Below the pieces are notes generated by a model, which saw only the letters and a list, made by a program, of their open reading frames with translations, had not been told where the DNA came from and did no database searches. Of a stretch of 35,928 bases of DNA, positions 5,201 to 35,928 are shown piece by piece (position 1 is the stretch's first letter; every line of letters begins with the position of its first letter). Origin of the DNA: a virus; the IMG/VR virus record IMGVR_UViG_3300021061_000040, positions 1 through 35,928 of that record; one strand, given 5' to 3'. Both the position numbers and the translations under genes were made by a program.

Positions 5201-5468
5201 CCCCCAAGCCACGCCCGCGACGATAGCGGAGAGGCTGAGCCCTGATCTTGTGGATGTGCTGCTGCACACGCTGGGGCTCGACCGTGCGGCGGAGCCGTAC
5301 CGCAACCACTTCGCGGCCGAGTCGAGTTCAGACGACTACCGGCGGTGCGAGGAACTGGCGGCGATGGGGCTGATGTGGAAGGGCCTAGCGACCGGCTACG
5401 GGCACTACTTCCATGCGACCGAGACTGGCAAAGCCGCCGCGGCAAAGGGGGTGGGGCGTGGAGGGTGA
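5193..5468 (+). CDS. Small phage protein, paralog of the gene at 2257-2514
   Basis: 91 residues, ATG at 5193 overlapping the ASCH stop, with AAAGGTGG upstream. It shares with the 2257 gene the line LLHTLGLDR...YRNHFAA...DYRRCEELAAMGLM...GYGHYFHATETG. An extra N-terminal segment (MPDPQATPATIAERLSPDLV) is absent from the other copy. Function unknown; the two copies are probably a duplication within the phage or independent acquisitions of a common phage gene. Confidence 0.75.
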   Translation: MPDPQATPATIAERLSPDLVDVLLHTLGLDRAAEPYRNHFAAESSSDDYRRCEELAAMGLMWKGLATGYGHYFHATETGKAAAAKGVGRGG

Positions 5469-34946: not shown

Positions 34947-35025
34947 CACCGCCCTGGACGCCGAGCCCGACGCGCCGTGGTGGCTCGGCGGGAGCGACGG
35001 CGACACCGAAAGGACCAGACCGTGA
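34927..35025 (+). CDS. 32-residue acidic micro-gene
   Basis: ATG at 34927 with GAAGGG six bases before it, 33 codons ending at 35025 with a GTGA overlap with the next gene's GTG. The product is acidic with two Trp (DALPDAPWWLGGSDGD-like core; reading TALDAEPDAPWWLGGSDGDT). It bridges two genes of the operon exactly as the other overlaps do. Could be a short coupling peptide or a real small protein. Confidence 0.4.
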   Translation: MEPDPIDTALDAEPDAPWWLGGSDGDTERTRP

Positions 35026-35423
35026 AGCAACTCATCTGCCTGCTCGTGCTCCTGGCCGCCGCGGCCCTGGCCCCGCTCGCCGTGAGCGGCACCGGGAACC
35101 GCCGCACCGACCTGCTCGCGCTCGACCTGCAAGTGGCCGCGTGCGCCGACTGGCCGCTGGAGGGGTACGTCGAGCCCCAGACGGACGTGCCGCCCACGTT
35201 CCCGCCGCGGGGGTTCTGGATCTGGTGGTACTGGCGCTACATGGAGAACCAGTTGCCGCCCGGCCACCGCGTGTACTGCGGCGTGACCTGCCCCGAGTTC
35301 TCCGCCGACCGCGACCTGGCCGCCGAGGTGGCGGACGACCTGGACGTGTCCTATTCCACGTCGGACACGGCGGAGGACATCTGCAACCTGATCGTGGCCG
35401 AGTACTGGGACGAGATTCAGTAG
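35022..35423 (+). CDS. Secreted or periplasmic phage protein, 133 residues
   Basis: GTG (35022) with AAAGGA upstream. A signal peptide is clear (KQLICLLVLLAAAALAPLAV), with a likely cut after AVSG. The mature part has an aromatic cluster (FWIWWYWRYMENQLPPGH), three to four Cys (VAACADW; YCGVTCPEF; DICNL) and an acidic C-terminus (AEVADDLDVSYSTSDTAED). It would be exported to the periplasm with disulfides. It is the last gene of the + strand series before the RNA. Function unknown; a late host-envelope or lysis-related role is possible. Confidence 0.65.
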   Translation: MKQLICLLVLLAAAALAPLAVSGTGNRRTDLLALDLQVAACADWPLEGYVEPQTDVPPTFPPRGFWIWWYWRYMENQLPPGHRVYCGVTCPEFSADRDLAAEVADDLDVSYSTSDTAEDICNLIVAEYWDEIQ

Positions 35424-35464
35424 CCGCCGTCCGCACCGTGCTGCCCGTGGGCAGGTTGTAGGCA

Positions 35465-35470
35465 TATACT
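35465..35470 (+). promoter_or_regulatory. -10 element of the right-end RNA
   Basis: TATACT, five of six matches to the -10 consensus, gives a start near 35476-35478. No good -35 is seen 17 bases upstream, where CTGCCCGTGGGCAG forms an inverted repeat that could be an activator site. Confidence 0.5.
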
Positions 35471-35476
35471 CCTCTG

Positions 35477-35604
35477 TTGCGTGGGTGAAAGTCGGCCTCG
35501 TGCCGGGACGTGCGAAAGCGCGTCTAGCCCACGGACAGAGATTGGAAGCCCCGGCCTGCGTCGCGTTGGCATCAGCCCCGGCGTAGAACCGGGGCTTTCT
35601 CTTT
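35477..35604 (+). ncRNA. Candidate structured non-coding RNA at the phage right end
   Basis: About 128 bases with promoter, fold and terminator. Reading by eye: P1 CGTGGG (35480-35485) with CCCACG (35528-35533), extended at the DNA level by CTCTGT/ACAGAG outside; P2 CGGC (35493-35496) with GCCG (35502-35505), loop CTCGT; P3 GACGTGC, loop GAAA, GCGCGTC (35507-35524), a seven-pair GNRA hairpin. They form a three-way junction with TGAAAGT and TAG linkers. A single-stranded region leads to AGCCCCGG (35547-35554) and the terminator. No open reading frame of use is inside. It matches no riboswitch or tRNA I recognise. Confidence 0.6.
35574..35604 (+). terminator. Intrinsic terminator of the right-end RNA
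   Basis: AGCCCCGG, loop CGTAGAA, CCGGGGCT: eight pairs, then TTTCTCTTT. A classic stem with a T-rich tail on the + strand. The same 8-mer AGCCCCGG occurs upstream at 35547-35554 and could pair with CCGGGGCT in its place. Confidence 0.75.
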
Positions 35605-35609
35605 GGACA

Positions 35610-35631
35610 CACCCCGGCCGGGGCCGGGGTG
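35610..35631 (+). terminator. Second GC hairpin between converging transcripts
   Basis: CACCCCGG (35610-35617), loop CCGGGG, CCGGGGTG (35624-35631), followed by GTTGCTTTATT on the + strand. It has no T-run on the minus strand. It sits between the RNA and the stop of the reverse gene and may work as a backstop for both. Confidence 0.4.
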
Positions 35632-35637
35632 GTTGCT

Positions 35638-35928
35638 TTATTGGTGCCACCCCCTCCGCTCCGCCTCTTCCACCGCCGCCGCCAGGGCATCCACCAGCGC
35701 CGGCTCGCTCACGTCGATGATCTCGTTCGTGCTCGCCGAGTCCCGGATCTTGACCCGCACCCGCCACGCCCGGCGCGTCGGCTGGCCGTCCCGGGTGCAG
35801 ATGGCCGACCAGAACCGGAGGCCGCCAGCGCCGACCGTCTGGTACTCGGTGCACCGATGCATCGAGCAGTCGCACCGGGCGTCCAGGGCGGCGAGCCGGG
35901 ACCAGAGTTCGGGCGGGATGGGCTGGGG
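35638..35928 (-). CDS. Hypothetical reverse-strand protein, 5' end outside the window
   Basis: The frame is open to the right edge, so at least 96 residues are visible. The start seen at 35862 is internal: upstream codons read PQPIPPELWSRLAALDARCD, which continue naturally. Then CTEYQTVGAGGLRFWSAICT, DGQPTRRAWRVRVKIRDSAS, and a C-terminal helix (LVDALAAAVEEAERRGWHQ). Three Cys near CDCSMHRC could bind metal. It may belong to another transcriptional unit, early or lysogenic. Function unknown. Confidence 0.6.
   Translation of the reverse strand, partial: PQPIPPELWSRLAALDARCDCSMHRCTEYQTVGAGGLRFWSAICTRDGQPTRRAWRVRVKIRDSASTNEIIDVSEPALVDALAAAVEEAERRGWHQ

Follow-up and report, generated by a model that had tools for sequence, protein, structure and literature searches.

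Near its right end, the window (the whole 35,928-nucleotide stretch of viral DNA analysed here) holds a gap of exactly 214 bases, 35424–35637, between a plus-strand gene that ends at 35423 and a convergent minus-strand ORF that ends at 35638. The question raised by this locus is what such a gap encodes and why a phage should carry it. The first-pass annotation had described a gene-free region between converging units that contains a TATACT −10 box, a compact three-way junction with a GNRA hairpin and an intrinsic terminator. This description proved accurate: both flanking genes are backed by GC3, and the box, the junction with its GAAA loop and the terminator stem with its T-rich tail are all present, though the box is without a good −35.

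The element and the phage that carries it

The features of the right end are listed below.

35022–35423, plus strand: left neighbour, a small predicted protein whose N-terminal part includes a hydrophobic stretch; no family assigned
35465–35470, plus strand: −10-like box TATACT, 16 nt upstream of the conserved core
35472–35540, plus strand: three-way-junction RNA domain, identified by fold z, covariation and covariance model R3 (51.7 bits)
35472–35478 and 35480–35485 paired with 35528–35540, plus strand: stem P1, with G35479 bulged
35493–35496/35502–35505, plus strand: stem P2
35508–35513/35518–35523, plus strand: stem P3, with a GAAA loop at 35514–35517
Junction strands of the window RNA, plus strand: GAAAGU, GG and CUA(G)
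35487–35527, plus strand: conserved core GAAnGUCGGC-N(4-5)-GCCG-(U)G - P3 - CUAG, from alignments
35544–35603, plus strand: 3′ linker and intrinsic terminator, the terminator at 35574–35603 (stem 35574–35596, then the T-rich tail TTTCTCTTT)
35610–35631, no strand assigned: palindrome CACCCCGGCCGGGGCCGGGGTG with T-rich DNA after it, a possible second terminator
35638–35928, minus strand: right neighbour, a small convergent ORF running off the window; no family, and not DUF3800

On the plus strand, the three-way junction is both the minimum-energy and the centroid fold of 35465–35604, at −77.4 kcal/mol as compared with −52.7 ± 4.1 for 200 shuffles (z = −6.0); the minus-strand fold is weaker (z = −3.2). 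The −10 box begins 41 bases after the end of the left neighbour gene. A promoter scan found no sigma-70 pair at TATACT, the best −35 having three of six bases. An extra copy of AGCCCCGG, at 35548 and thus upstream of the terminator, is also able to pair with CCGGGGCU. Tandem repeats are absent from the right end of the window, and the window RNA matched no Rfam 15 family. A resemblance to segments of group II introns was also weighed, but none of the group II models in Rfam gave a match. The element is best read as a free-standing small RNA consisting of a three-way junction and a terminator.

A twin record of 44,719 bases, which differs from the window by one base in the compared stretches (99.99–100% identity), has ends that overlap by 127 bases, which closes the genome at ∼44.6 kb. 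The window is a fragment of it that lacks 8.7 kb, including the genes for Erf and RusA; TerL, portal and major head protein are also encoded by the phage. Its best cellular TerL relatives lie in Planctomycetota, which indirectly supports the earlier description of a planctomycete phage, and on this relationship the host is probably a planctomycete. Two repeats were recorded elsewhere in the genome: a 71-base repeat, 79% identical, at 2266–2336 and 5244–5314 of the window, and a long imperfect inverted repeat with 34-nt arms (L009, 9341–9439) in the part absent from the window.

Relatives of the RNA and support for its stems

With DNA patterns of the window copy, whether exact or gapped, only the twin was recovered; the same was true of searches with the flanking proteins, and a genome-wide pattern returned nothing. 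BLASTN matches in GenBank phages were chance, and other matches, at L060/L061 and L017, were rejected as such. A covariance model built from the window's single copy (R1) picked out of 392 Planctomycetota genomes a match between genes (L113, 36.6 bits) in which the core is the same and the stems are changed. Core patterns in viral contigs gave L132, L133, L136 and L137, and nine further viral members were found later. Of 15 contigs from the first pattern scan, the twin, L132 and L133 were retained; the other matches appear to have arisen by chance within coding DNA.

Chromosomal members were recovered with a second model, R2, whose structure was one column off; it therefore worked mainly on sequence, and its members were not selected for true pairing. 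Weak R2 matches (L141–L144, L146–L150, L182, L184, L186–L190) have no junction. A third model, R3, made from a correctly structured alignment of 25 members, also detects L169 and L173, both of which lie outside its alignment. Members of the family are found in 14 phages, in genomes of Planctomycetota and Chloroflexota (each draw of genomes being labelled with the phylum of its named central genome) and on a plasmid of a cyanobacterium. Rfam matches to BjrC80 and rnk_pseudo were based on terminator stems and were set aside.

The homologue comparison that the first-pass annotation had called for found the stems kept in relatives, with many compensatory changes. In the 25-member alignment, scored with the correct structure, 14 of 17 pairs change on both sides, and 85 compensatory cells were observed as compared with 31.2 ± 4.8 after shuffling (0/500), or 19–49 when the structure was slid along the alignment; 82.9% of cells are paired, against 67.1 ± 1.4 in shuffles. 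The number of pairs that change on both sides and the excess of compensatory cells indicate that the stems are real. Covariation is strong in P1 and P3, while P2 says little because it is nearly invariant. In the pattern searches of viral contigs the core sequence was prescribed and the covarying stems were left free, so that conservation of the core among viral members is partly a product of selection by the search. What is conserved across the family is the three-way junction: the terminator region of the window lies outside it, and the window RNA has an outer P1 helix that differs in sequence from that of the DUF3800-linked copies described below.

Convergent DUF3800 genes and their absence from most of the phages

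Inspection of the cellular copies identified a common partner. Four chromosomal neighbours are DUF3800 proteins by Pfam, and in all 27 loci scored the DUF3800 gene is antiparallel to the RNA and runs towards it. Its stop codon falls inside the RNA in 21 of these 27 loci, often as a TAG antisense to the conserved CTAG. Approached from the gene, a set of 248 genomes yielded 19 loci with a DUF3800 of this subfamily, spread over 18 genomes; in 17 of the 19 the RNA lies at the 3′ end of the gene (Fisher p = 3e-10 for the association over the 248 genomes). The same convergent arrangement occurs in Chloroflexota, and on the cyanobacterial plasmid AP025634 two copies of the RNA flank DUF3800. The family is thus convergently associated with DUF3800, with chromosomal members L175 and L177 having no DUF3800 neighbour. 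Two copies of the RNA per DUF3800 locus were noted at L212 (AP025634.1; 1494–1562 and 2236–2306) and at L233 (1263–1335 and 1414–1472). The PADLOC label for the four DUF3800 proteins tested is DUF3800_VII, a name used for the effector protein in retrons of type VII. DUF3800 has a VDEAGD motif with conserved Asp and Glu.

Boxes resembling a −10 lie 12–36 nt upstream of the core in the chromosomal copies, and T-runs usually follow close after P1; with these signals of their own the copies look like independent transcripts. The mean −10 score of all members, viral included, exceeds that of every shuffle. Some copies are found among restriction and candidate defence genes. At L202 and L205 the DUF3800–RNA pair lies between the methylase gene (mod) and the restriction gene (res) in a type III system, and at L206 a type IIG enzyme is encoded near the module. 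A chromosomal RNA without DUF3800 (L207, 6000–6060) is convergent to the PADLOC candidate PDC-M31B, and a HEC-01A gene lies ∼5 kb from it. These cases come from 13 chromosomal neighbourhoods that were viewed, of which only those with recognizable candidates were run against the family libraries, and they are not a measure of enrichment.

The phages present a different picture. A DUF3800 gene is absent from 13 of the 14 RNA-bearing phages, the closed genome of the window phage included; a PF12686 search found none in the window or in the closed twin. Records longer than 20 kb are available for nine of the 14, and eight of these nine are without DUF3800; in the remaining phages the absence means little because the records are short fragments. 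The phage of the window therefore holds an RNA of a host-module family while the effector gene is absent from it. In copies without DUF3800 the core and stems are intact, and several retain a −10 box and a T-run. In one viral contig (G612/L168) a convergent DUF3800 gene adjoins the RNA and an integrase is also present; since several records are fragments, some viral copies may be complete modules carried as cargo. A gene-poor segment of ∼1 kb in another phage record (L170, 3447–4480, minus strand) contains this RNA, a DUF3800-VIII RNA, tRNA-Trp and other tRNA-like or folded segments, and the record has no DUF3800 gene. tRNAs lie near the RNA also in L133, L167 and L174.

Possible function and relation to known systems

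These arrangements suggest, with a probability that we put at about one half, that the RNA is the partner in a DUF3800 nuclease module and that the phage has this part alone, as a decoy or antitoxin mimic. The cellular RNA would form a two-component module with the DUF3800 protein, a predicted RNase H-like nuclease; the RNA would bind this protein and restrain it, in the manner of RNA antitoxins, and the module would act in anti-phage defence. Since the protein gene is absent from the phage, its RNA copy would bind the DUF3800 of the host and keep the nuclease off during infection, as a form of counter-defence. The steps are made plausible by analogy with the precedents of phiTE pseudo-ToxI, Racr and AbiF–RCd22. 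Against this reading stand the divergent outer P1 helix of the window RNA, its lack of a good −35, the viral contig that has a convergent DUF3800 gene of its own, and the absence of any known host genome in which this phage and a matching DUF3800 occur together. Extending this to phages at large is a little more tentative: phages might carry orphan DUF3800-class RNAs, sometimes several classes beside tRNAs, as inhibitors of a widespread DUF3800–RNA defence module. The family supplies a concrete hypothesis, in which a nuclease–RNA module is sometimes nested in restriction systems and phages have the RNA only, and it provides matched cognate and phage RNAs. If the hypothesis is true, it would add an RNA-based route by which phages escape defence.

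Among the alternatives, the one that we rate highest, although still unlikely, holds that whole DUF3800–RNA modules were once carried for superinfection exclusion and that the protein gene was then lost, leaving an RNA that does little or that protects against related modules only by chance. The viral contig with a convergent DUF3800 gene beside the RNA, together with its integrase, speaks for such a history; nevertheless, absence of the gene from 13 of 14 phages would demand many independent losses, though some records are fragments, and the intact core and stems, in several copies with −10 box and T-run, also count against it. It is less probable again that the RNA acts on the host DUF3800 nuclease as an activator or guide, and that the phage thereby turns the enzyme on competitors or on host RNA. 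An RNase H fold is predicted for DUF3800, which has been linked in the literature to non-coding RNAs and CRISPR effectors (PMC10910872); retention of the RNA alone by phages would fit this role. Against it, a variable segment resembling a spacer was not seen next to the core, and the modules occur in defence loci, where aiding the nuclease would normally harm the phage.

The remaining alternatives detach the RNA from DUF3800. The first-pass annotation had offered a phage regulatory RNA, a riboswitch-like element or a packaging-related RNA; that it is a phage non-coding RNA stands, given the covariation, its own −10 box and its terminator, while the two more specific roles fared poorly. A regulatory sRNA or a cis element (riboswitch or attenuator) for the phage's own genes, unrelated in function to DUF3800, could exploit the two copies of AGCCCCGG, which can compete for the 3′ strand of the terminator. 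Nevertheless, no same-strand gene follows, the next gene being convergent, and members of the family are free-standing RNAs convergent to a neighbour, so a riboswitch is not supported; the conserved junction is common to the DUF3800-linked copies, and the terminator region of the window falls outside what the family conserves. We regard this explanation as improbable. A packaging-related RNA seems very improbable indeed: at L133 the RNA lies ∼1.1 kb upstream of an ORF taken as a terminase by inspection only, but R1 found no match in ∼1 Mb of homology-fetched, TerL-bearing relatives, and most members are chromosomal and lie beside DUF3800.

The preferred reading, that of a partner RNA borrowed as a decoy, has counterparts of several kinds. 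The closest in kind are the Rfam DUF3800 motifs (DUF3800-I RF02969, DUF3800-VIII RF03075, DUF3800-IX RF02968 and others), likewise small structured RNAs tied to DUF3800; unlike them, the window copy is without a DUF3800 partner. Rfam DUF3800 models had no match at E ≤ 10 in the window, L113, L133 or L136, and in a search of 15 loci against Rfam at E ≤ 1 the sole DUF3800 match was at a separate place in L170. To judge from these comparisons, the RNA appears to be a new class of a known kind, DUF3800-linked RNA, that is absent from Rfam. The literature searched contained no description of this class or of its use by phages as an orphan RNA, and no paper in it gave DUF3800-linked RNAs a function.

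Other systems offer clear precedents. ToxI consists of tandem repeats upstream of toxN, whereas the RNA described here is a single junction that is convergent to its protein gene and whose inhibitory action is proposed by analogy. The pseudo-ToxI of phage phiTE is a type III toxin–antitoxin mimic (PMC3475682) and resembles the window RNA in that a phage has, on its own, the RNA component of a protein–RNA system of the host. AbiF and RCd22 are a toxic protein and the structured non-coding RNA that neutralizes it, located in a prophage (PMC12373285); protein and RNA are unrelated to those described here, where toxicity and neutralization are putative. RNA anti-CRISPRs (Racr) are host defence RNAs that phages have as solitary copies (PMC10651486); the window RNA is likewise solitary, and differs in that the RNA copied is the partner of DUF3800 rather than a CRISPR repeat.
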